A stretch of 43,920 bases of DNA from Candidatus Liptonbacteria bacterium. Its GTDB lineage: Bacteria; Patescibacteriota; Minisyncoccia; UBA6257; 2-01-FULL-56-20. Of the stretch, positions 16,931 to 43,920 are shown in pieces. Positions within the stretch are counted from its first letter, which is position 1; each line of letters opens with the position of its first letter. The translations under genes and the position numbers were made by a program. The notes beneath the pieces were generated by a model that made no database searches, was not told the origin of the DNA, and worked only from the letters and a program-made list of their open reading frames with translations. Where the stretch lies: contig JACQKT010000014.1 of the NCBI GenBank assembly GCA_016204355.1, positions 1 to 43,920 of the forward strand, written 5' to 3'.

Positions 16931-17016
16931 TATATATCACCAGCCCGGAAATTTACAATCGGCAGCGAGGAGTAAAGTGAAATTTATTTTCATTTTATAC
17001 GAACGAACCGATTGAA

Positions 17017-17041
17017 GCGATGTCGCTACGCTCGACATCGC
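17017..17041. repeat. Hairpin directly after the copB-like stop codon
   Basis: GCGATGTCG-CTACGCT-CGACATCGC, perfect 9-bp arms; no strong U-tract on the minus strand. Confidence 0.6.
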
Positions 17042-19174
17042 CTAAAGTTTTTTTCCGCGCAGAAGCACGGCGTTAACCGCAACTATAACGGTCGAAAGAG
17101 ACATGAGAATCGCGGCCAGCGCCGGCTCTAAAAGAATTCCTTTGAACGCCAGAACCCCGGCCGCGAGCGGAATGGCAATAACGTTGTATCCCGTCGCCCA
17201 AAAAAGATTCTGTATCATTTTTGAGTATGTAAGTTTCGAGAGGCGGATTATTTTCGCTATGTCGCGAGGGTCGTTGCGCACGAGAATTATTCCTGCCGAT
17301 TCGATAGCGACATTCGTACCTGCACCTATCGCTATACCTAAATCCGCCTGCGCGAGCGCGGGAGCGTCATTGACTCCATCTCCGACCATGGCGACTTTTT
17401 GTCCTTTGCCCTGCAAAACTTTTACCTTTTCCGATTTTTCATGCGGCATAACTTTTGCGAAATATTCGTCGAGACCCAGTTCGCCGGCTACCCATTCGGC
17501 TACATCCACGTCGTCCCCAGTAACCATGGCCGTTTTAACCCCTATTTCGCGGAGAGCTTTCACTGCTTCGCGCGACTCGTCGCGTATAACGTCTGCCATG
17601 GCGAGTGCACCAATCGTTTTTCCGCCGACCATAACGACATTTATGGTCTCGCCTTTTTTTGAAAGAGCGTTTACTTTGTCCTTCAGTTCTCCGCCGACAG
17701 CGCCGTGCTCTTCCGCCAGAGCGATGCTGCCGACGATTATTTCTTCGCCGCCAACTTCCGCCCGGACTCCTTTGCCTGGTATTCTTTGGAAATTTTTTAT
17801 TTCGAACATCCCGAGATTCCTTTTTTTCGCTTCATCGAGCATCGCTTTTGCAAGAGGATGTTCAGAGTGAGCGTTTACAGAAGCGGCGTATTTGAGAACG
17901 TCGGCTTCGCCGCCTGTCGTAACGGAAATAACTTGTTCGACGCCGAATTCGCCCTTCGTCAACGTTCCTGTTTTGTCGAAAAGAACCGTATCTATCCCAC
18001 GGGCGGCTTCCAGGGCAAGACGCTGCTTGACCAAAAATCCGTTCCTCGCAGCCTTAGTTGTGGATATTGACGCGACAAGAGGTATGGCGAGACCCAGCGC
18101 GTGTGGACACGCGATCACAAGAACAGCCACCATGCGGTTGATTGCGAACGCCGCATCAGAAACCGCCAGCCAGGAAACGAGCGTTACGCCGCCCGTTACA
18201 ACGGCGATAATCGTAAGATAATACGCGGCTTTGTCGGAAAGTATCTGTAGGCGCGACTTGGAACTTTGCGCCTCGTTCACAAGGCGCATCACGCCCGACA
18301 AAAACGTTTCTTCTCCGATTTTCGTTACCGCAACACGCAAAGAACCGTCGCCGTTAGTCGCGCCGGCGATAACGCCATCTCCGGCTTTTTTCGTTACCGG
18401 CTTGGATTCGCCCGTTACTATGGATTCGTTGACGTCGGACGTCCCTTCTTCCACGATTCCGTCCGCGGGGATTTTTCCTCCGGGCTTTACAAGAACAATG
18501 TCACCTTTTTTGAGTTCCGACAGCGGAACTTTTTCGGTTCTTTCCCCTCTTACCAGCTCAGCCTCGTCTGGAATGAGTTTCGATATTTCTTTCAACGCGC
18601 TTTGTGCGCCGGAAACGGCTCTCATTTCAAGCCAGTGCCCCAGAAGCATGATGGTGATAAGCGTAGACAATTCCCAGAAAAGCGTATCTGTCCCGCCGGC
18701 AAAAATCACCGCGATGCTGTAGAAATATGCAACGGATATTGCAAGTGCGATAAGCGTCATCATGCCCGGAAGTTTCGCTTTCAGCTCGCGGTAGGCGGAA
18801 GCGACGAATATCCATCCCCCGTAGAAAAATATTATCGAGGAAAGAACGGCGGGCAGATATTGGGAACCGGGAAAAACCGGAGCCCTCCAGCCAAGAAGGG
18901 CCTGTGTTATACCCGAATAAACGACGACAGGAATACTCAAAATAAAACTTACCCAAAACTTCGTCCTAAAAATATTCGTTGAATGCCCTTCGTGCTTATT
19001 GAATCCGCCGCGCTTTTTGTGCGCATCATGCGCATCGCCACCCGTCTTTTTTTCTACGACAAGATTCATTCCGCATTCGGGACAAATCCCCGGCTTATCC
19101 CGCTTTATTTCGGGATGCATGGGACATATATAAGCCGGCACTCCTTCCGGCGCGTTTTCGCGATCGTGATTCAT
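17042..19174 (-). CDS. copB: Heavy-metal P-type ATPase, CopB-type (CPH motif), with N-terminal Cys-rich metal-binding domain
   Basis: YICPMHPEIKRDKPGICPECGMNLV; VLVIACPHALGLAIPL; DKTGTLTKGEF; MVGDGVNDAPALAQADLGIAIG. Confidence 0.92.
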   Translation of the reverse strand: MNHDRENAPEGVPAYICPMHPEIKRDKPGICPECGMNLVVEKKTGGDAHDAHKKRGGFNKHEGHSTNIFRTKFWVSFILSIPVVVYSGITQALLGWRAPVFPGSQYLPAVLSSIIFFYGGWIFVASAYRELKAKLPGMMTLIALAISVAYFYSIAVIFAGGTDTLFWELSTLITIMLLGHWLEMRAVSGAQSALKEISKLIPDEAELVRGERTEKVPLSELKKGDIVLVKPGGKIPADGIVEEGTSDVNESIVTGESKPVTKKAGDGVIAGATNGDGSLRVAVTKIGEETFLSGVMRLVNEAQSSKSRLQILSDKAAYYLTIIAVVTGGVTLVSWLAVSDAAFAINRMVAVLVIACPHALGLAIPLVASISTTKAARNGFLVKQRLALEAARGIDTVLFDKTGTLTKGEFGVEQVISVTTGGEADVLKYAASVNAHSEHPLAKAMLDEAKKRNLGMFEIKNFQRIPGKGVRAEVGGEEIIVGSIALAEEHGAVGGELKDKVNALSKKGETINVVMVGGKTIGALAMADVIRDESREAVKALREIGVKTAMVTGDDVDVAEWVAGELGLDEYFAKVMPHEKSEKVKVLQGKGQKVAMVGDGVNDAPALAQADLGIAIGAGTNVAIESAGIILVRNDPRDIAKIIRLSKLTYSKMIQNLFWATGYNVIAIPLAAGVLAFKGILLEPALAAILMSLSTVIVAVNAVLLRGKKL

Positions 19175-19198
19175 ATTTTTACTTTTTATTGCATTCGA

Positions 19199-19456
19199 TT
19201 ACGTGGTCTGCACGAAACGGTTGTGAAGCCAAGCAAAAACATAAGCAGTAACATAAGTAAGGATAAAGACCTCGATTACTCCGTATATGGCTTCAGGAAA
19301 ACTCACGCCAGCATCAAGGTTAACAAGGTGAACCATCCAGCTGAAAAGCGTGAGAGTCAAATCGGGAGCAAGAGCAACCAGTGCCGCGCAAATAGCTGAC
19401 CACACACCCATTACGGATGCTGCTGCCAAGGCGAATTTTGATTTGTTTAATTGCAT
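19199..19456 (-). CDS. Small two-TM membrane protein, DUF5676-like
   Basis: FALAAASVMGVWSAICAALVALAPDLTLTLFSWMVHLVNL...FPEAIYGVIEVFILTYVTAYVFAWLHNRFV, next to a Cu ATPase. Confidence 0.7.
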   Translation of the reverse strand: MQLNKSKFALAAASVMGVWSAICAALVALAPDLTLTLFSWMVHLVNLDAGVSFPEAIYGVIEVFILTYVTAYVFAWLHNRFVQTT

Positions 19457-19495
19457 TTTTTTAAATATGTTGCCGGCCTTTAAATATTTTACTCT

Positions 19496-20404
19496 TTACA
19501 CTCCGCAGCCTGCGCCATTCGAGCCGTTAACCGGTTCGATTTGCTCGAGTATTTTCTGGAAACCGGAAAAACTCGAAAATTGATATCCGACTATCTGTTT
19601 CGGATCTGCGTTATCCCACTCAATGCCCCTTTTCTCCAAAAGCCTCGCTATCGCAAAATATGTGTCTGGAAACCAATATGAATTTACCTGAAGCGCGATT
19701 TTATACATTTCGTTTTCCGAAACACCCTGCGATGCCATCAATTCCAAAAGTCCCAGCATCGCCATGCCGTGATTGCAGTCGGGAAAATAAACTGAGTTGT
19801 CGCAACAGGGGCGGTAGATATTCTTACTGACGCTCTCCACCATGCGCTGCTGTTCCGGCGTCAATATAACGAACTGGTGGCGACTGTAGTGCGCCATCGC
19901 GCTTCCGCTCGCTATCGTCCAGCCGCCAGTCGACGCAAAATTCGCTGTGCCGCCGTATCTTGGATCCGCCATCGGTCCTTTTTCGAGAATTTCGTTTTTA
20001 TTCCCAAGTCCAGGCGCCCACAAAAGATTCAGCAAAAAATTGGCGTTTTCCGGCGTTATTTTCAGATTTCCGTTATCCGTTCTTTCAAGAAGTTTCTTTT
20101 CGGATGTGCTCAACCCCCCGCGTGCGGTGTAAATCGATTCCAATTTTTCCTTGTCTATGACTCCGGAACTCACGAGTTTTATCCCGAGGTCTCCCCAGCG
20201 CGCCGGTAAAGCAACGCCGTCCGGCGGAAGAACTTTTTCTTGAAGTGAGGCGTAAACGTTCCCGGTATTGTTTTTCTTCCCATCGAGGTTTGTGGAGTAC
20301 GTAAGAGCCCCGCCGATAATCAGGGCGGATACGGTTATGCTGACCGGCAAGAGATATTTTTCTTTCGGTTTTTCTATTTCTCGATTTTCGATTTTTTCTT
20401 CCAT
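19496..20404 (-). CDS. Membrane-anchored protein of unknown function with CC / DCNHG motif
   Basis: N-terminal TM LLPVSITVSALIIGGALTY; NIYRPCCDNSVYFPDCNHGMAMLGLLELMASQG; C-terminal NGAGCGV. Confidence 0.75.
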   Translation of the reverse strand: MEEKIENREIEKPKEKYLLPVSITVSALIIGGALTYSTNLDGKKNNTGNVYASLQEKVLPPDGVALPARWGDLGIKLVSSGVIDKEKLESIYTARGGLSTSEKKLLERTDNGNLKITPENANFLLNLLWAPGLGNKNEILEKGPMADPRYGGTANFASTGGWTIASGSAMAHYSRHQFVILTPEQQRMVESVSKNIYRPCCDNSVYFPDCNHGMAMLGLLELMASQGVSENEMYKIALQVNSYWFPDTYFAIARLLEKRGIEWDNADPKQIVGYQFSSFSGFQKILEQIEPVNGSNGAGCGV

Positions 20405-20420
20405 ATAATTAAGAATAACA

Positions 20421-20813
20421 TCAATCCCGAACTTTCAGAGGACATCCGCTTTCCGAAGACAGCCTATCCAGCCCCTGCTCGCCCTCGAGCTTTCTGCCGT
20501 CCGGCCCGCCTGCCGGCGAGGCAGGGAATGTCCATGTCGGATAACCGTTTATTCCTGCGGCTATGCATTTATCTGGTTCGTCAGGGCATTCTATGTAGGG
20601 AACGAATCTGAAAGAGCTGCCGAAACGGTTTTTTTCATCCTGGCAATGCGGACACCAGTCTGCGCCGTACATAGTTATTCCTTTTGAAGCGAGGCACTTG
20701 GCGAAAGAATCAAGCTGGCTGTATGTCTTTTCTTTTGGATAAAAAACTAATACGGCTGCTATTATTATCGCCGCGATTCCGATGAACGCGATTGCCGATT
20801 GTTTTTTATTCAT
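20421..20813 (-). CDS. Membrane-anchored thioredoxin-like protein, similar to the Trx domain of VKOR-Trx fusions
   Basis: Signal/TM AIAFIGIAAIIIAAVLVFY; LDSFAKCLASKGITMYGADWCPHCQDEKNRFGSSF...YIECPDEPDKCIAAGINGYPTWTF. Confidence 0.88.
   Translation of the reverse strand: MNKKQSAIAFIGIAAIIIAAVLVFYPKEKTYSQLDSFAKCLASKGITMYGADWCPHCQDEKNRFGSSFRFVPYIECPDEPDKCIAAGINGYPTWTFPASPAGGPDGRKLEGEQGLDRLSSESGCPLKVRD
20505..20526. repeat. GC-rich palindromic repeat inside the thioredoxin CDS
   Basis: CCCGCCTGCCGGCGAGGCAGGG (minus: CCCTGCCTCGCCGGCAGGCGGG), encoding the insert ASPAGGP. Confidence 0.7.
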
Positions 20814-21318
20814 CGCAGCAATCCACCAATTTATCGACTATGTCTTTGTACGTCCACGGTTTTTTGTCCTGAGCCGATTCCGAAACAGCCAGTTCTTTGA
20901 AGCCGGCTGCGTCCAATACTTTCAGCCGCACCGCCCAAAAGAGCGAATATGTTTCGTAGGCGCGCCCGAATATTTCTTCCGCTTCTTTTTTCTTGCCGTC
21001 GGAATGAAGCTTAGTCCCAACCTCGATGAGGCGCATCGTCGTTCCAAGAAGGTGCTTTGAGATGCACCATGTTTCGCCTTCGTTCTTGTCCATCATTTTG
21101 GCGAGAAGCTCTTTTCGTATTCCCCGTATCCGATCCAGGAAATCGAAATACTTTGTCTTGCCGGTTTTCGTTCCGGTAAAAAAGAAATGCTCCTCCAAAC
21201 TTATCAGGTTCATTATTGCCAAGCTCAAATCCTCTTCGGTGGAAAGGTCGACACTGCCCGTTTTTTTCATTTCCTCGACTTTTTTTATGATTGATTCGAA
21301 TTTTTCTTTGTCGCTCAT
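20806..21318 (-). CDS. Conserved-looking protein of unknown function (170 aa, mostly helical, C-terminal CC)
   Basis: Open ORF packed between ccdA-like and thioredoxin genes (8-nt overlap with the latter); ends KLVDCCDE. Confidence 0.75.
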   Translation of the reverse strand: MSDKEKFESIIKKVEEMKKTGSVDLSTEEDLSLAIMNLISLEEHFFFTGTKTGKTKYFDFLDRIRGIRKELLAKMMDKNEGETWCISKHLLGTTMRLIEVGTKLHSDGKKKEAEEIFGRAYETYSLFWAVRLKVLDAAGFKELAVSESAQDKKPWTYKDIVDKLVDCCDE

Positions 21319-21322
21319 GCTT

Positions 21323-22105
21323 TTAGAGAATAAAGATTATTAATCCTAAGGCGACCATCGCTATTCCTGTCCAAAGGCGCATATCCCTGTTTTCCCTGTT
21401 TTTCCATTCTTTTACTTTCTCCAACAAATCCCTGTCGCTGGCGGCGAAGAGTATTACAACCAACGGCAAAACGAAAATCAGGTTGTAAAAGAGAAGGTAA
21501 CCGAACCCTCTGAAATACGTCGCCTGGTCATGCAGAAGCCCCAGCACCATCAGGTACGGACCGCCCGTGCAAGGGAATTCGCATATTCCGACAAGGGCGC
21601 CGAGCAAAAATGCCGTCGGCGCCGAAGCTTTTTCCATAAGTTCGGCGATTTTGCCGTGTACCGTCTGCGGTATGCGCAGCTTGATCGGGAATGTCGGGAA
21701 AAGAACACTGACAACGTTAATAGCTCCGAATAAAAGGAGTAGTGAAGCTCCGACTTTTGCCATGAAGTGGGGTGTATTGAAGAGATGAAGCGTCTGGATG
21801 ATGCCCAAACCTATCAGAAGATAGATCATGAAGATGCCCGCGATATAAGCGGCCCCTATTTTAATGATTCCCGAGCGAGACGCGCCCAGACTGAAGAGAA
21901 ATGCAATCGTTACAAGAAGAATGGAAAAGGCACACGGGTTGATGCTGTCGAGCAATGCCGAAACCGTAACCAAAGGAAGCAGCCAGCTCCCTTCTCCACT
22001 AAGATTCCAAACGATTTTTGCTCCTAAGCTTTGCGAGTTAAGAAGCGCTACTGCGCCGACAAAAATCGTGGCAATCGAGGCAAAAATAATTATTTTTTTT
22101 CTCAT
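21323..22105 (-). CDS. ccdA: CcdA/DsbD-type transmembrane thiol-electron transporter
   Basis: LLDSINPCAFSILLVTIAFLFSLG and GALVGICEFPCTGGPYLMVLGLL, the paired membrane Cys motifs; multiple TM helices. Confidence 0.9.
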   Translation of the reverse strand: MRKKIIIFASIATIFVGAVALLNSQSLGAKIVWNLSGEGSWLLPLVTVSALLDSINPCAFSILLVTIAFLFSLGASRSGIIKIGAAYIAGIFMIYLLIGLGIIQTLHLFNTPHFMAKVGASLLLLFGAINVVSVLFPTFPIKLRIPQTVHGKIAELMEKASAPTAFLLGALVGICEFPCTGGPYLMVLGLLHDQATYFRGFGYLLFYNLIFVLPLVVILFAASDRDLLEKVKEWKNRENRDMRLWTGIAMVALGLIIFIL

Positions 22106-22108
22106 GCT

Positions 22109-22615
22109 TCAAGGAGTAACGTTCGACTTTATTTCGAATTCAAGGTATCCGGAATTCGTTTCGGCGCGGACAACTCTTTGAATCGGGCCGATTCCCGCCG
22201 GACCGTGGGCCGCCGGATCGAATATCACTTCCATTTTCGCTTTTTCCCCGGGTGCCAGCGATTCGCTAATGCCGGCGGCGAAGCCGTGTCCCTGCATGCC
22301 GAAGGGGCCGACGCTTTTGTCGCTTTTTATCAACGTTGCGGAAGTGCACATGCACGAAGTATAGATTCTCCCGATCGTCACGGGCGCTGAACCGATATTT
22401 TCGAACTCGAAGCTGTGCGAAACTTTTCCGTTCGCCATGGAAATCGTTCCGAAATCGAAAGTTTTTTCAGCGGACGCAAAACTTTCGGAAGTATTGTCGG
22501 CATTTTGGCCGCCGGTATCCGCTGATCCGTTGCGCGTACTTGAACCGCCGACGAAGTAAAGAGCGATAATTACAATGACCGTAACCAAAGAATAAATTAT
22601 TGTTGATTTTTTCAT
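22109..22615 (-). CDS. DUF1573-domain exported protein
   Basis: ASAEKTFDFGTISMANGKVSHSFEFENIGSAPVTIGRIYTSCMCTSATL; N-terminal signal/TM. Start set at the MKKSTIIYSLV ATG. Confidence 0.85.
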   Translation of the reverse strand: MKKSTIIYSLVTVIVIIALYFVGGSSTRNGSADTGGQNADNTSESFASAEKTFDFGTISMANGKVSHSFEFENIGSAPVTIGRIYTSCMCTSATLIKSDKSVGPFGMQGHGFAAGISESLAPGEKAKMEVIFDPAAHGPAGIGPIQRVVRAETNSGYLEFEIKSNVTP

Positions 22616-22666
22616 TTTTGATTTAACTGGTTTATTTGGCTTGCTTTCCGGTTCGGAAAACAAAAA

Positions 22667-22742
22667 CCGCCTGACACAAAACACGGGTTGCAAAAGACCG
22701 GCGGAATCAAAAGCTTCCGCGCGCAACCCGCGAATCAGACGG
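22667..22742 (-). terminator. Large nested hairpin with U-tract between the TM-protein gene and the DUF1573 gene
   Basis: Minus strand CCGTCTGA..CGGGTTGC..GCGGAA..TTCCGC..GCAACCCG..TCAGGCGG-TTTTTGTTTT: three nested stems (8 bp with one mismatch, 8 bp, 6 bp). Confidence 0.7.
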
Positions 22743-23118
22743 CAATATTTTCTCTGAGAACCGCGAACCAATCCAAAAATCTGTGTCTGCGCGGGAAAAC
22801 AGGTTTTTTTAAAGAATCAAACGAACCGCTTTCTGCCGGCAAAAGTCCGGAAATCAAGCCTGGCAAGATTCCCGCGAAAGCAAACAGGAAGAAAAGCGCT
22901 GCGAAAATCAGCGGGATAACTGCGCTTGAAAAGCTTTTCAAAAAGTCGATATGAAACATCGCGACCGCGACAGCATTGTCCGTCATGCAGGAATTTCCGT
23001 AAGCGGAAGAAGCGAGACATCCATGACCCATGCCGAAATATGTATTCATGGCAAGAAAGCCGAAAACGCCCAAAAAGATGAAACTTGCCGCAACCAATAA
23101 TGCAACGTATGTCTTCAT
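22735..23118 (-). CDS. Small membrane protein with loop Cys residues, unknown function
   Basis: Likely start MKTYVALLVAASFIFLGVFGFLAM; GMGHGCLASSAYGNSCM; second TM AVIPLIFAALFFLFAFAGILPGLI. Confidence 0.7.
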   Translation of the reverse strand: MKTYVALLVAASFIFLGVFGFLAMNTYFGMGHGCLASSAYGNSCMTDNAVAVAMFHIDFLKSFSSAVIPLIFAALFFLFAFAGILPGLISGLLPAESGSFDSLKKPVFPRRHRFLDWFAVLRENIAV

Positions 23119-23196
23119 ATTTGCCGTAATGATATCAAAAATCGCCGAGCGCGGCAAATCCACGCACTTTCGAGCCGCCGCCACTTTGTTTCAAAA

Positions 23197-23670
23197 TTAT
23201 CCCGTTTTTTTCGATCTAAAAAACAGAAATGTCGCCGTCAGAAAAAGAAATGTCGAAGAAAAAGCGGAAATCATGCAGTAAAAGCAAATGTATTTTATTA
23301 CGAAAATCTGAAGATAAACGAAATATGCCGACGCAAAAGACCCTACTGGGGAAAAAATAAGCGCCGCTTTGAAAAACTTTTCAGAATGCCCGGAAAGAAA
23401 GAAAACCGACAGCGAAAAAATCGACAAGTAATAAACGGCCCCGATTATGCCGAGCGGTATGCCGAACATAACGGCATATTCGCTTGAGAGAACCTTGTCG
23501 CACCCCTCAACGATGAAACAATTTACAGCAGAGCCATTATAATGCTCTATCGTAAGATATATAGAATCGGCGAGTCCGACGAAACTTAAAAAAATAAAAA
23601 TCCACGCGGCGCGTTTAAACAAGGCTGAATTCCAAAAACCGACATTTTGAGCTTCGGTGGATATAATCAT
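23197..23670 (-). CDS. Vitamin K epoxide reductase (VKOR) family protein
   Basis: VGLADSIYLTIEHY...NCFIVEGCDKVLSSEYAVMFGIPLGIIGAVYY...KYICFYCMISAF (loop Cys pair plus CxxC). Confidence 0.92.
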   Translation of the reverse strand: MIISTEAQNVGFWNSALFKRAAWIFIFLSFVGLADSIYLTIEHYNGSAVNCFIVEGCDKVLSSEYAVMFGIPLGIIGAVYYLSIFSLSVFFLSGHSEKFFKAALIFSPVGSFASAYFVYLQIFVIKYICFYCMISAFSSTFLFLTATFLFFRSKKTG

Positions 23671-31414: not shown

Positions 31415-31506
31415 TGGTGAAATTCTAAATTAAAACAATGCTCTCATGCAAATGTTTCCAAAAACGCAGTTTTGGGCTAAAATATGAAAATAAAATAACC
31501 ACTAAT

Positions 31507-32202
31507 ATGCTAAAGGTTACAAATCTTTCGGTTTCTCTGGACGGTGAAGCCATATTCGAGAACATAAATTTTGAGATAAAAAAAGGAGAAAACCTGGCGA
31601 TAATAGGGCCGAACGGCTCCGGCAAAACCGTGCTATTGAAAACATTGCTCGGCTTTTTTCCGTATGAAGGGGAAATAAAATGGGCTGAAAACGCCAGAAT
31701 CGGCTACGTTCCCCAAAAAATAGAGGCCGACCGCCACTTGCCGATTGACTTGGAAAATCTCATAAACGCCAAAGCTGCCGTTTTGGGTCTTGAAAAGTCC
31801 GGCGTAAAGACGGTAATAGAATCCGCCAAAATAACGGAAAAAATTTTGAAAACGCCGATAGGTCATCTTTCCGGAGGGCAATTCCAGCGGGCGCTTATAG
31901 CCTTCGCTCTTCTCGGAAGACCGACCATCATGCTCTTAGATGAACCGACGGCAAGCATAGACCAGCTCGGCGAAGAACAAATTTACGAACTTATCAACGA
32001 ACTTCAGGAAAAATACGGCATAACGATAATCCTCGTTTCTCATGACCTTAGCGTAGTTTATAGATATGCAACGAAAGTGCTTTGTCTTAACAAAACAGGA
32101 ATCTGCTTCGGTCCCCCGGAATCGGCCTTAACCCCGGAAGTTTTCAAAAAATTGTACGGCGAGAAACACAAATACGTTCACCACCACGAAAGTCATGCTT
32201 AA
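31507..32202 (+). CDS. znuC: Zn/Mn-type metal ABC transporter ATP-binding protein
   Basis: Walker A GPNGSGKTVLLKTLLGF; signature LSGGQFQRALIAFALLGRPTIMLLDEPT; start set at MLKVTNLSVS. Confidence 0.88.
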   Translation: MLKVTNLSVSLDGEAIFENINFEIKKGENLAIIGPNGSGKTVLLKTLLGFFPYEGEIKWAENARIGYVPQKIEADRHLPIDLENLINAKAAVLGLEKSGVKTVIESAKITEKILKTPIGHLSGGQFQRALIAFALLGRPTIMLLDEPTASIDQLGEEQIYELINELQEKYGITIILVSHDLSVVYRYATKVLCLNKTGICFGPPESALTPEVFKKLYGEKHKYVHHHESHA

Positions 32203-32962
32203 TGAAACCTATTCGATAGTTTTAGCAATTTTTGCGGCCAGCGCGGCCGGGCTCGTGGGCGCTTTCGCTCTTATGAAAAAAACAGTCCTTGCCGGCGATG
32301 TCATGTCCCATGTGGCCATCCCGGGTATAGGTTTGGCTTTTATATGGCAGACCAATCCGCTCATCGGCGGGGCGTTAACGCTTTTTCTGGGTGCGTTCGT
32401 AATCTCGCGCCTTGAACACAGAACAACGCTTTCCTCGGAAGCGGCGATAGGCGTAATCTTCGCAGCTTCTGTTGCTCTCGGCGCGCTGCTTATAAACTCC
32501 GAAGAAGAGCTGATAGACGCCCTTTTCGGCGGATTCGGAAAATTGTCGCGGGGCGAATTTATATTCGGAATCGTTTCAAGCATTCTTATAGTCGCCGCAC
32601 TATGGGTTTTGAGAAACAAGCTGATAATCAGTCTTTTCTCCAAAGACCTGGCGGCATCAATCGGGATTAATGTGAGGGTTTTGAATTTTTTGTTTCTCCT
32701 CCTTTTTTCTTTGGCAATACTTTTGGGTCTGCGGTTTTTGGGCGCGCTTCTTGCTGGAGCGCTTATAATAGTTCCCGCTTCCGCGGCAAGGCAGTTGTCT
32801 CACAGCTTGGGACTGTTTCTGGCCCTCTCGATGTTCCTCTCGATTCTCTCGATAGTTCTCGGGTTTGTAATTTCGTCCGCTTACGGACTCGACCTTGGAC
32901 CGACAATTGTTGTGGTGGCATCGGCCATTTTTGCCTTCAGCCTGCTGAAAAAGAAGAATTAG
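32195..32962 (+). CDS. znuB: Zn/Mn-type metal ABC transporter permease
   Basis: GLVGAFALMKKTVLAGDVMSHVAIPGIGLAFIWQTNPLIGGALTLFLGA; multi-TM; 8-nt overlap with the ATPase gene. Confidence 0.88.
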   Translation: MLNETYSIVLAIFAASAAGLVGAFALMKKTVLAGDVMSHVAIPGIGLAFIWQTNPLIGGALTLFLGAFVISRLEHRTTLSSEAAIGVIFAASVALGALLINSEEELIDALFGGFGKLSRGEFIFGIVSSILIVAALWVLRNKLIISLFSKDLAASIGINVRVLNFLFLLLFSLAILLGLRFLGALLAGALIIVPASAARQLSHSLGLFLALSMFLSILSIVLGFVISSAYGLDLGPTIVVVASAIFAFSLLKKKN

Positions 32963-37150: not shown

Positions 37151-40100
37151 TCAATTTCCGGCAGCTTCTTTATTCTGTTCCGTCTTTTGCGACGACAGCG
37201 GAGACACTCCTTCAGCATAAGTTCTTTCTTCTTTTTCTCTCTTTCCCCCGGTGGGTACAAGCCGGCCGATTATCACGTTTTCTTTCAATCCGCGGAGTGA
37301 ATCGACACGTCCTTCAAGAGAAGCCTGGACCAGTACGCGCGCCGTATCCTGGAAAGAAGCTGCGGAAAGGAAACTTTCCGTGGAAAGAGCGACTCTCGTA
37401 ATACCCAAAAGAAGCTGCTGCGCTCTGGCCGGCTGTTTGCCTTTTCGTTTCAACTCCCTGTTAATTTCAAGGAACTTTGATTTGTCTATGACTTCTCCGA
37501 CAACCAATTCCTGCGCATCGCCGGTTTCTTTAATTCTGAGCCTTGAAAACATTTGTCTTACCATGACCTCTATATGCTTGTTGTTTATCGAAGCTCCTTC
37601 CGCTGAATATATTTTTTGGACTTCGTTGATTATATAGCGAACCACTTCTTTGCTACCTTTGTACTCAAGGAGTTCCTGAAGATCGATATGCCCTTCGGAA
37701 AGCTGTTGTCCGGCGACGACATCATCACCGACCTCAACGAAAAGAAGCGCGGCTCTCGGTACGGAATACTCCATCGTTTTTTTGTTCGCTTTCTTTTTCT
37801 TTGTTTCCCTCTTTTCTTTGACCCCGATGGTTATTATTTTAAGGGCTCCTTTTTGTTCTATTTTTTCGACTTTCCCGTCCGCAGACGACAGAATCGCCTT
37901 ACCTTTCGGAGGGCGCGCCTCAAAAAGTTCTTCTACGCGTGGCAAGCCATGTGTGATATCTAAACCCGCCACGCCTCCGACGTGGAAAGTTCTCAATGTG
38001 AGCTGCGTTCCAGGTTCTCCTATCGACTGCGCCGCGATTATTCCCACTGCTTCGCCCGTCTTTATGGGTTCGTTCTTGCTCAAATCGAGCCCGTAACAGC
38101 GGCGGCAAAAACCGTAAAGCGTTTTACATGAAATCGGCGAGCGGATTTTCACGGATTCAATTTTAGATTCCTGAATAAGTGCCGCGTCGCTTTTTTCTAT
38201 TATATTGCCTGCGCGCACAATTATTTTTTTTCCGGATTTAATATCCTCGGCTGCGGTCCTTGAGAAAAGAAGTGTTTCAACGGACTGGCCGATGTCTTTA
38301 GCGTCTTTCAAAAAGACTTCTATGCCTTCAGTGGTGCGGCAATCGTCATCTTTTATGGTAAGTTCCTGTGAAACATCTACAAGCCTTCTTGTTAGGTATC
38401 CTGCCTGAGCAGTTTTCAGAGCCGTGTCGGTCATTCCTTTCCTGGCGCCTCTCGTGGAAATGAAATATTCAAGGACGCTGAATCCTTCCTTAAAGGATGA
38501 CTTTATCGGCAGCTCCAAAGTTTCGCCCTGCGGGTTTTGAACCAATCCTTTCATTCCCATCATCTGAATAGGCTGGGCCCACGACCCTCTGGAGCCGGAA
38601 TCTATGATTTGATGTATCGGATTTCCTTTCTCGAAAGTCGATGTAACATATTTGGTTACTTCTGTTTTGGCGTTTTCCCAAACGCTTATAACCCTTGCCT
38701 TTCTTTCGGCATCAGTCAGAAGGCCTTGTATGTATTGCTCGCGAATGACGGCTATCTGGTCCTCGGCATTTTTGATAATGCCCTTCTTTTCTTTCGGAAT
38801 CACCAAGTCGGCCATAGCCCATGTTATTCCGGAGCGGGTAGCCATTTTGAAACCGAGATCTTTAACTCTTACGAGAATTTCCGTCGCTTTTTCCAAGCCG
38901 AGATGAACAACGAGCGATTCGATAAATTTGGAAAGTTTACGCTTATTGAATGTATCTTTCGCTTTGAAATTTTCCGGTACTTCTCCCAGAATGCCGTTGA
39001 AAATAGCCCTCCCTAAAGTGGTTTTTTCGCTGCCCATTCTGATCGGAGCATGGAGAGAAACAAACCCGTTTTCATAAGCAATAAGGCCTTCTTCGAGACT
39101 TTCAAAAGCCTTGTCCTTGCCCTTGCCATTTTCGTCGATTCTCGTTAGGTAGTATATTCCCAAAACAACGTCGTTGGTCGGCAATGCCACAAGGTCGCCC
39201 GTGGCGGGTTTCAGAATATTGTGATTGGCGGACATAATCTCGGCGGCTTCCTTTTGAGCCTGATCCGAAAGCGGCAAATGGACGGCCATCTGGTCTCCGT
39301 CGAAATCCGCGTTGAAAGCCACGCAAACAAGCGGCGGTATTTGTATGGCAAGCCCTTCTATAAGAAGCGGTTTGAACGCCTGTATTCCGAGACGGTGCAA
39401 TGTCGGCGCGCGATTCAAAAGAACCCTGCGGTCTTTGATTATTTCTTCGAGTATTGCGTAGATTTCGTCTCCGGCCTGCTCGATAAGCCGATTTGCGTTC
39501 CTTATAGTGTGAGCCATTCCCCTCTTAATTATTTCATGGATGACAAACGGCCGGAAGAGCTCGAGAGCCATTTTTTTCGGCAGACCGCATTCGTCCAAAT
39601 CGAGATTCGGCCCGACGACGATTACGGAACGTCCGGAGTAATCGACACGTTTTCCGAGAAGATTTTGCCTGAACCTTCCCTGTTTCCCCTTCAACATGTC
39701 GGCGAGAGAACGCAGCGGTCTTCTTTGTGCGGACATTTGCTGCGTGCCGAATCTCGTCGAATTGTCTATCAGTGCGTCAACCGACTCCTGAAGCATTCTT
39801 TTTTCATTTTTGATTATCACCTCCGGAGCTTTTATTTCCATGAGCCGCTTCAACCTGTTGTTTCTGTTTATAACGCGGCGATAAAGATCATTAAGGTCCG
39901 AAGTCGCATATCTTCCTCCATCCAGCGCCACCATAGGGCGGAGATCCGGAGGCAGAACAGGCAAGGCCGTGAGAATCAGCCACTCTGGGCGGATTCCGTT
40001 TTTGAACATGGAACGGAAAAGTTTCAACCTTCTCAGGGCTTTGTTCTCCGCCGGTCCGGATTGTTTTGGAGAACCGGTTTCTTTTTCCATTTTTTGGATC

Positions 40101-43100
40101 TCGCTCTTGAGATCCATTTTTTCGAGAATCTTTCTTATCGCTTCCGCGCCGCTGGCAGCAATAAAAACGTTCCCGAACCTTCTGCTCAGTCTGAAATATT
40201 CCGATTCGCTGAGAACGAGTCCCGGCCTGAGATTGAGAAGGGTCGATTTTATCTGACTGGCCGCGTATTCCAGCTCATCGGAGGCTTTCTTGACGACTTT
40301 TTTGGTGTTTCCGGTTCTGACTGTTTTTATTTTTCCTTTAAGTTCACGCTCGATTTCCTCCAGTGCCGCTTTTCGGTTTCCTTCGTCAACCTCAGTGACA
40401 ACGTAATCGACGTAATAAATGACGCGCTCGAGTTTCGAAGAAGGAACGTCGAGCATCAGGCTTAGTCTTGAAGGTATGGCTTTGAAAAACCATATATGCG
40501 CAACCGGTGCCGCCAAATTTATATGCCCGAGCCTTTCGCGTCTCACGGAAGCCCTGGTTACTTCTACGCCGCATCTGTCGCAAACAACGCCCTTATATCT
40601 TATTCTTCTGTATTTGCCGCAATAACATTCGTAATCCTTGACCGGACCGAATATGCGCTCCGAAAAAAGACCGTCTTTCTCCGGGCGCTGAGTCCGATAG
40701 TTTATCGTTTCGGGTTTTATCACTTCTCCGTGTGACCACTTGTTTACTATGTCCTCGGGCGAAGCGGGACTTATTTTCAGCGCCTTGAAATCATCTCTGT
40801 GGCTCGCCTCGGATTCATAAATGGGCTCGATATTCATTGAAAGAGCTTTCAGTTCGCTTACAAGGACATTGAACGTAGCAGGAATGTTTGGTTCCTTTAT
40901 CTGTTCGCCGCGTATTATAGACTCGTAAGCAGCCGAACGCCCCATGACGTCGTCGGATTTGATGGTCAGCATTTCCTGCAAAACATGGCGCGCGCCGTAG
41001 CCTTCCAACGCCCAGACTTCCATCTCTCCGAATCTTTGTCCTCCGAATTGAGCTTTTCCTCCGAGCGGTTGCTGGGTAATCAGCGAGTAAGGGCCTATCG
41101 AACGCATATGCACTTTGTCTTCAACAAGGTGATTGAGTTTCATCATGTAAATTGTTCCTACAGTAACCTTTTGGTCGAAAGACTCTCCCGTTTGCCCGTT
41201 GTAAAGAACCATTTTCCCGTCCTCGGGCAAATTGGCTTTTTTGAGTTCCGCCCTTATTTCCTCTTCGTTGGCCGAATCCAGTCCCGGAGTAACGGCGCGA
41301 TAGCCCTGCTCGGAGGCGGCCCAGCCGAGGTGCGTTTCCAAAATTTGTCCGAGATTCATACGCGAAACCACGCCCAAAGGATTCAAAATTATGTCCACGG
41401 GCGTTCCGTCTTCGAGATAAGGCATATCCTCAACCGGCCTCACCTGCGAAATCACGCCTTTGTTCCCATGCCGTCCCGCCAGCTTGTCGCCAGCCTGGAC
41501 TTTCCTGAGATGCGCTACCTCGACCTGAATTCGTTTGATAACTCCTACCTCCAATTTGTCTCCTTGGTCACGGGAAAATATTTTTACGCCGACAACGCGG
41601 CCGCGTTTGCCGTGAGGCATTGTGAGCGAAGTATCTTTAACGTCGCGAGCTTTTTCTCCGAAAATCGCGCGGAGTAATCTTTCTTCGGCGGTCAGCTCCG
41701 TTTCTCCTTTCGGAGATATCTTGCCCACGAGAATGTCTCCGGCTTTAACTTCGGCGCCCATACGCACTATTCCTTCCTCATCCAAGTTTTTCAGTTTTTC
41801 TTCTGCTACGTTAGGAAGGTCCGGCGTTGTTATTTCCGGACCGAGTTTGGTGTCACGGACGTCGCAATAAAAATCTTCAATATGTATGGAAGTAAAAAGA
41901 TCGTCGCGAGCAACGCGTTCTGATATTATTATCGCGTCTTCGAAGTTCGCGCCTTCCCATGACATGAAGGCAACTTTCAGATTTTGTCCGAGAGCAAGAA
42001 TTCCGTCTTCCGTCGACGGCCCGTCTATCAAAACTTCTCCTTTTTTAACCGCCTGCCCTTGCGAAACAAGAGGTTTTTGGGAAATGCACGTATATTGGTT
42101 AGAACGCTTGAATTTCGTAAGAGTGTGGACTTTCTTTTCTTTGCCGTATTGCACGGTAACCGAACCGGCGTCAACCGCCACTATTTTCCCGTCTGCTTCC
42201 GCGCGCACAACGTATCCGGAATCGCCGGCGGATTTTTCTTCCTGTCCGGTCATCACGTGCGGTGCCTTCGGCTTTATAGAGGGAACGGCCTGCCTTTGCA
42301 TATTCGAGCCCATCAGCGCGCGGGAGGCGTCCGTGTGCTGCAAAAACGGGATAAGCGAGGCGGCTATACTTACGAATTGATGTGGAGAAACTTCTATCAA
42401 GTCAATCTCTTCGGCAGGATAAGTTCCAACCTCTCCGCTGAATCTCGCTTCCAAAACGTCGCCGGAAAGTCTGTCTCCTTCCGTGCGCGGAACAGCCGAG
42501 TGAACTATCTTGTGTTTTTCCTCTTCAAGCGCGTCCAGCCAGACTATTTCATGGGTAACTTTTCCGTTTTTCACTTTGGCATAAGGCGTCACCAAAAACC
42601 CGAAATCGTTCACACGCGCGAATCCGGAAAGATAGTTTATCAAACCGATGTTGGTCCCTTCCGGAGTAAGTATCGGGCATATTCTCCCATAATACGAATG
42701 ATGAACGTCACGGACTTCGAAGCTTGCATGTTCTCTCCTTAGTCCTCCCGGACCGAGGGCGGAAAGGCGTCTCTTGTGCTCGAGTTCGGCCAAAGGATTC
42801 ACCTGGTCCATGAATTGCGAAAGCTGCGAAGAAGCGAAGAATTCCTTAACTACCGCGTTGATGGGACGGAAGTTTATAAGCTGGGCGGGAGTAAGAGAAT
42901 CCTTGTCGAGAGTGGACATTCTGTCCTGGATAATTCTTCTCAGGCGGGCCAAGCCGACGCGAAGACGTCCCTGGAGGAGCTCTCCGACAGACTTGAGCCG
43001 CCGATTGCCGAGATGGTCTATATCGTCGGGCTTTGCCGCTGGATCGTTGTTCAATTTTATAATTTCCCTGACGATGGAGATAAGATCATCAAGCTTAAGA

Positions 43101-43920
43101 AGGCGTTCTTCCTCTTTTTTCTTGTTAACTACCGCAAGCCGCTGGTTGAGCTTGAATCTCCCTACCGGCGAAAGGTCGTAACGTTCGAAGCGCTGAAATA
43201 TGGAATCCACAAGGTTCTTTGCCGTAGCAGGCGTTGCGGGATCTCCCGGCCTCAAACGGCGGTATATTTCGACATAAGATTCGTCGATGTTCTTGGCGAC
43301 ATCTTTTTTCAGAGTGGCGTCCATGTACCGGATGGAACCTTTGTCTATGTCCTGGAATCTCGACTTCAATTCTTCTTCCGACGCTCCGAAAACTCTCAAA
43401 AGGTCCGTCACCGGAACTTTCCTGTTCCTGTCTATTTTTACACCTATCACTCCGTCGGGATCGGTTTCGAACTCGAGCCACGCTCCGCGGTTCGGTATGA
43501 CTTTGGCTCCGAACAACTGGCGGTCGTGCCAAACCGACGAAGTAAAATAAACACCCGACGATCTTATCAATTGCGAAACAACAACTCTTTCAACACCGTT
43601 TATTATAAAAGTTCCTCTGTCGGTCATGGCGGGAAAATCGCCGAAATATATTTCTTGCGAATTGGGCTGTCCCGCTTTCTTGTTTTCTAGCCTTACTTTT
43701 ATATAAAGAGGTATTTCGTATGTTCCGTCTTTATAAATGACTGTTGCTTCGTCGGCTTTCGGTTTTTCAAAACGAAAATCCTCGAAATAAAGTTCGAGTT
43801 CTTTTCCGGTGTGATCGCGTATCGGAGAAACCTCTTCGAGAAGTTCCCGCATCCCCTCCTTCAAAAACCACTGATATGATTTTATTTGTATTTCATTAAG
43901 ATCTGAAGGAACTCCTATCG
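37151..43920 (-). CDS. rpoBC: Fused DNA-directed RNA polymerase beta-beta' subunit (5' end beyond the window)
   Basis: beta: [46 protein letters not shown]; continuous into beta': [46 protein letters not shown]. Frame stays open to the window edge (…[23 protein letters not shown]). Confidence 0.95.

Follow-up and report, generated by a model that had tools for sequence, protein, structure and literature searches.

Copper tolerance is joined to thiol redox control of the envelope in ScsABCD of Salmonella, Proteus and Caulobacter, where the DsbD-like membrane reductase ScsB keeps the Cu(I)-binding, thioredoxin-fold protein ScsC reduced (PMC8900818). Reductant is also exported by CcdA together with anchored thioredoxins of the TlpA, CcmG or ResA type in cytochrome c maturation, P1B ATPases are found in copper operons with CsoR or CueR (copAZ, copB-mco), and VKOR is fused to a thioredoxin (Trx) in cyanobacteria and plants (3KP9). 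Here, we describe a row of nine genes from Candidatus Liptonbacteria bacterium, located in the window, i.e. the whole stretch of 43,920 nucleotides that was analysed. A CcdA-like transporter is accompanied by an anchored Trx, a P1B ATPase is present and many related loci carry a CsoR-type regulator, and both halves of the VKOR-Trx fusion are encoded as separate proteins. In contrast to ScsABCD, the transporter consists of one CcdA-like unit and lacks alpha and gamma domains, the partner is a protein of an unnamed family (CC/DCNHG, in the following CC), and a copper ATPase is part of the set. Since neither the alpha-beta-gamma domains of ScsB nor an adjacent ScsC was found, the module is not a member of ScsABCD. 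Unlike in cytochrome c maturation, the recurrent neighbours are copper genes and no cytochrome c was found in the genome; unlike in CsoR/CueR operons, there is an extra thiol-reducing unit with unnamed families, and the genome gave no CsoR match; and unlike in the VKOR fusion, Trx is unfused and mostly found beside CcdA and CC. We give a probability of roughly 55% to the reading that the module couples copper export to envelope thiol reduction, working like Scs with different parts.

The nine-gene row and its proteins

Reading of the window gave nine ORFs at 17042-23670, all intact and all on the minus strand, as predicted originally. The flanking genes on both sides are on the minus strand too, so co-direction by itself is no evidence and conservation had to decide. 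With corrected start codons, most likely ATG 23118 for the small membrane protein TM2 and ATG 22615 for the DUF1573 protein, the gaps from DUF1573 to CopB are, in order, 3, 4, -8, 16, 39 and 24 nt. That neighbours lie within a few tens of nucleotides is right for most junctions (≤40 nt), but not for VKOR-TM2 (78 nt) and TM2-DUF1573 (119 nt), and VKOR sits nearer to an unrelated upstream gene (27 nt) than to TM2. These two gaps, the strand of the flanking genes and the rare linkage of VKOR are what one would expect if unrelated units had come to lie side by side by chance in a region with strand bias; this is hardly credible, since the same families are found together, with fusions, in many candidate phyla as well as on plasmids of betaproteobacteria, which contradicts it for TM2 to CopB, i.e. 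eight of the nine genes. Directly 3' of the CopB stop, an inverted repeat (17012..17046; 14-nt arms, 86% complementary, 7-nt loop) is a possible transcript end, without a clear T-run; a scan for promoters and terminators gave no excess over shuffled sequences. Elsewhere in the window, a 2237-aa frame (37151-43864, minus strand) contains all RpoB domains and, about 10 residues later, all main RpoC domains without a stop in between, i.e. a natural rpoB-rpoC fusion, and an ABC ATPase is encoded with an ABC-3 permease of the zinc/manganese type at 31438-32962 (plus strand).

VKOR (23197..23670, minus strand, like all genes of the row; 157 aa) was identified correctly: it matches PF07884 above the cut-off (8.1e-27), has the loop Cys pair (Cys51/57) and the CxxC (CFYC, 129/132) of the family and matches 4nv6 in the PDB (9.6e-9). 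It is the sole VKOR found in the genome. TM2 (22735..23118, 127 aa) belongs to an unnamed family in which Cys 34 and 44 are kept in 100% of 53 relatives, with a near-invariant His. The next protein (22109..22615) has a predicted signal anchor and, as expected, the DUF1573 domain (PF07610, 2.4e-14); its CxC (Cys88/90) is conserved in 95%. The Trx (20421..20813) is membrane-anchored and has the motif WCPHC; its best match in the PDB is to the VKOR fusion of Synechococcus, in the part that forms the Trx domain (3kp8, E 2e-17), which bears out its kinship to VKOR-fused Trx domains.

The transporter (21323..22105, 260 aa) is a single-domain protein with Cys58, 175 and 179. Its description as CcdA/DsbD-type holds in part. 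The Cys are 97-100% conserved in 43 sequences, with Cys58 and Cys179 invariant, and this CcdA-type redox pair is in the first and fourth core membrane segments as predicted by hydropathy, but the protein is below every Pfam and NCBIfam cut-off: it did not match Pfam DsbD_TM or DsbD_2, the best Pfam score was SfLAP with 28.8 bits (cut-off 35), NCBIfam DsbD gave 20.7 against a cut-off of 330, and weak matches to ArsG, DsbD and SfLAP were all sub-threshold. A TlpA-like AhpC/TSA protein and a CcdA with DsbD_TM are encoded on contig 22 of the same genome (L270 3657-4199 and 8068-8823), unlinked to the cluster, which is thus not the sole reductant route.

U170 (20806..21318) is a soluble helical protein of an unnamed family with a C-terminal vicinal Cys tail (DCC; vicinal Cys in 19/20 relatives); its AlphaFold (AF2) model has a pLDDT of 79.9 and retrieved only generic helical bundles in a fold search. 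In several loci (L030, L036, L056, L061, L113) its slot after CcdA is taken by f7, a CxxC membrane protein with C31, C34, C145 and C146 invariant in 32 sequences, 31 of which end in vicinal Cys. Away from CC, the gene before U170 encodes f22, a small membrane protein with HCPLC, in 16 of 20 genomes, and in two U170 is paired with CcdA. Apparently, U170 is a general partner of Cys-bearing membrane proteins. The f22-U170 couple is itself a widespread, unnamed two-gene pair (L179-L196), with DUF411 adjoining in three cases.

The last two genes encode a DUF5676 protein with two transmembrane segments (19199..19456; PF18926, 6e-14) and a heavy-metal ATPase of 710 aa (17042..19174), and both were named correctly from the start. 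The ATPase has an N-terminal HMBD and the E1-E2 ATPase domain, aligns end to end with the Legionella Cu-ATPase 3rfu (E 4e-135) and contains VIACPHALGL and FDKTGTLT, which makes it a P1B ATPase of the CopB (CPH) type. In the genome stretches examined it is the only CPx-type ATPase. TM2, U170 and CC match no family of Pfam, NCBIfam or PHROG; the prediction of at least three unassigned components therefore stands.

Neighbours of CC in other genomes

Of 240 genomes sampled across the phylum, 24 encode CC (24 of 210 genera), and the window's own genome is the sole carrier among the sampled genomes of its order and class. At least 574 encoded relatives were confirmed in a profile scan of species-level genomes. 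Neighbours were clustered unsupervised and then profiled. At distances of up to 6 kb from 105 CC genes, we found the P1B ATPase at 82 loci, DUF1573 at 61, TM2 at 54, the CcdA-like transporter at 42, a second CcdA type (CcdA2) at 38, a CsoR-type regulator at 38, f7 at 31, DUF5676 at 30, U170 at 20, Trx at 13 and VKOR at 7, nearly all on the strand of CC. A DUF302 cluster was contaminated by other families and its count is left out. In 400 kb of random stretches of single-contig Patescibacteria the count was zero for the same families, a contrast that is somewhat flattered by profiles trained on these very loci, too little to explain it. The usual order is TM2-DUF1573-CcdA-(U170 or f7)-(Trx)-CC, followed by CsoR, DUF5676 and the ATPase; in most cases f7, CcdA2, Trx, DUF1573 or U170 directly precedes CC, the gaps having medians of 1-18 nt. 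In the reverse direction, all four significant matches of TM2 (E <0.001, own genome excluded) adjoin a CcdA that was found independently. The test named beforehand, whether the unnamed genes recur beside CcdA and CopB in related genomes, was thus answered in the affirmative by the 105 loci profiled. TM2-CcdA-U170-Trx and Trx-U170-CcdA units are also found without adjoining CC or CopB (L177, L189). The reducing half therefore occurs on its own, and there are two separable sub-modules. One CC gene lies on a contig labelled Thermodesulfovibrionia (L108); it adjoins or nests with Nomurabacteria in the CC tree, the contig is probably misbinned, and it was dropped as evidence for another phylum. Among the papers retrieved in searches on copper resistance in Patescibacteria/CPR and on CcdA, DUF1573 and copper, no title or abstract describes the module; copA has been reported in groundwater Patescibacteria in one paper.

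VKOR had been regarded as the oxidising arm of a self-contained system of nine genes. This view has to be given up. Seven of 105 loci against about one expected by chance (a rough estimate, with VKOR in 15 of 35 genomes of the class) is an enrichment, but a rare association, and VKOR was rejected as a core component on these counts. The nine-gene cluster contains no DsbA-like gene, and the single DsbA-like protein found is encoded alone on contig 28 (L223), away from the cluster. Probably, VKOR catalyses disulfide formation in general and adjoins the module by chance. Trx is usually beside CcdA and CC and rarely near VKOR, so that its redox direction may be the reverse.

The regulators point to a metal: 43 of 45 CsoR-type neighbours retain the residues of a metal site, Cys-His-His or Cys-His-Cys. 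In the window's genome (90% complete), this usual regulator is missing, with no match to the CsoR family. The ATPases near CC are of both the CPC and the CPH type, and P1B ATPases are able to move metals other than copper. Further neighbours are DUF411, cupredoxin-bearing proteins, and AhpC/TSA peroxiredoxins beside CcdA2 and CC. Seven to eight CC loci also have f23 as a neighbour, a protein with a Pfam match to lycopene cyclase (L098 11530-12225), which is odd for a copper island.

CcdA-Trx pairs take part in copper-site assembly elsewhere. This would lead to the assumption that CopB and CC supply a secreted cuproenzyme whose copper site is reduced by CcdA and Trx, as in CuA assembly, and NirK has indeed been reported from some Parcubacteria (PMC5581439). 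However, the absence of a cytochrome c that could explain CcdA, noted originally for the window, holds genome-wide (no match to PF00034 in the 90% complete genome, with positive controls), and COX1 gave no match there either. A motif scan, admittedly a weak test, revealed no clear multicopper oxidase and a few loose cupredoxin-motif matches, and no cuproenzyme was seen among the recurrent CC neighbours whose families were looked up. Delivery to a cuproenzyme is, therefore, improbable.

Homologues of CC with 35-38% identity are present on plasmids of Burkholderia contaminans and Paraburkholderia fungorum, and both begin with a twin-arginine (Tat)-like signal. In B. contaminans, the CC gene comes directly after a heavy-metal P-type ATPase, in an island that also encodes CueR, CcdA, peroxiredoxins and thioredoxin. 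The setting in P. fungorum is looser; CcdA, thioredoxin and metal ATPases are encoded no more than about 10 kb away, and the plasmid has DsrE genes.

The CC/DCNHG protein

CC (19496..20404, 302 aa) consists of a predicted membrane anchor and a domain with the motif R-P-C-C-x-N-x5-D-C-N-H-G. The Cys of this motif and the C-terminal Cys300 are the only ones, four in total. R-x-C-C-x-N-x5-D-C-x-H-G is kept in 106 of 106 CC sequences, and 104 of them have a Cys among the last 20 residues. The AF2 model is confident (pLDDT 88.7, pTM 0.81), with a pLDDT of about 94-97 near the motif, which is folded as a loop leading into a helix that begins at N211-H212, and the tail bearing Cys300 is disordered. 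A rigid site in the modelled structure together with a mobile Cys would fit metal handling or thiol exchange. Against the PDB, neither the fold search (best E 3.4, TM ≤0.2) nor the sequence profile gave a match, and CC was not found in the viral contigs and phage records in which it was looked for. Kinship to PCYCGC (PF13798) was considered and is unsupported; there was no Pfam match, and hhalign, run against one member only, gave nothing.

In one genome, the ATPase and CC are a single ORF of 1037 aa, in two genomes an extracytoplasmic rhodanese-like domain is fused to CC, and in four proteins (L049, L051, L052, L053) CC is fused to a multi-TM membrane domain of a CPVCG type that has no Pfam family. 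The rhodanese fusions bring up the main rival, which is a role in sulfur or peroxide stress: the system would mainly serve against thiol and sulfur stress (peroxide, persulfide, repair of envelope disulfides); CC would be a carrier of sulfur or a thiol oxidoreductase, and the metal ATPase would be accessory. The peroxiredoxins beside CcdA2 and CC, the DsrE genes of Paraburkholderia and the reducing units without adjoining CC or CopB are in line with this. On the other hand, CopB is near 82 of the 105 CC loci and once fused to CC, the regulators have metal-type sites, with CueR in Burkholderia, and DUF411 and cupredoxin-bearing proteins are among the neighbours. We regard such a role as rather unlikely. 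It is tempting to speculate, although only as a tentative possibility, that CC is a new extracytoplasmic copper-handling family with a fold not in the PDB, a thiol-dependent receiver of copper from P1B ATPases, and that U170 and f7 are new Cys-tailed adaptors that feed envelope reductant exporters.

A proposed coupling of copper export and thiol reduction

The reading of copper export coupled to thiol reduction builds on the computed gene content, conservation, linkage, fusions and conserved Cys and on the absent matches to cytochrome c, COX1 and CsoR. Copper as the metal is suggested by the type of the ATPase, the C-H-H/C-H-C regulators, CueR in Burkholderia and the ATPase-CC fusion. The module would have two joined halves serving copper tolerance, probably so that copper does not harm the envelope. 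In the copper half, the CPH-type ATPase would pump copper out of the cytoplasm, and DUF5676 and the membrane-anchored CC would act at the outer face. Most likely, CC would receive or sequester Cu(I) via a pre-formed CC...C.H site, and the Cys of its flexible C-terminus would provide a mobile ligand or thiol. In the reducing half, the CcdA-like transporter would send electrons outward to the anchored Trx (WCPHC), and electrons would also reach the Cys of DUF1573, TM2 and CC. The thiols of these three would thereby stay reduced and competent for Cu(I) binding despite copper-driven oxidation. U170, predicted to be cytoplasmic, or its replacement f7 may feed or dock on the transporter via the C-terminal Cys-Cys tail. 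Copper as the metal, the direction of the electrons, CC as a ligand, the role of U170 and VKOR as a bystander are what we infer. Against a copper module speak the presence of both CPC and CPH ATPases near CC, the missing CsoR match here and the free-standing reducing half. Moreover, U170 is mainly found with f22 elsewhere and may act independently of CcdA, and the rhodanese fusions allow sulfur transfer by CC.

Patescibacteria have very small genomes and few known stress systems, and still CC is present in about one in ten of the genomes sampled. With the module, three unnamed families gain a testable job, and since Burkholderia and Paraburkholderia, which can be cultivated, carry CC on plasmids, its biochemistry can be studied before any Patescibacteria are in culture. 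If the module works as proposed, it would show that the logic of Scs, copper together with thiol reduction, can be built from different parts.
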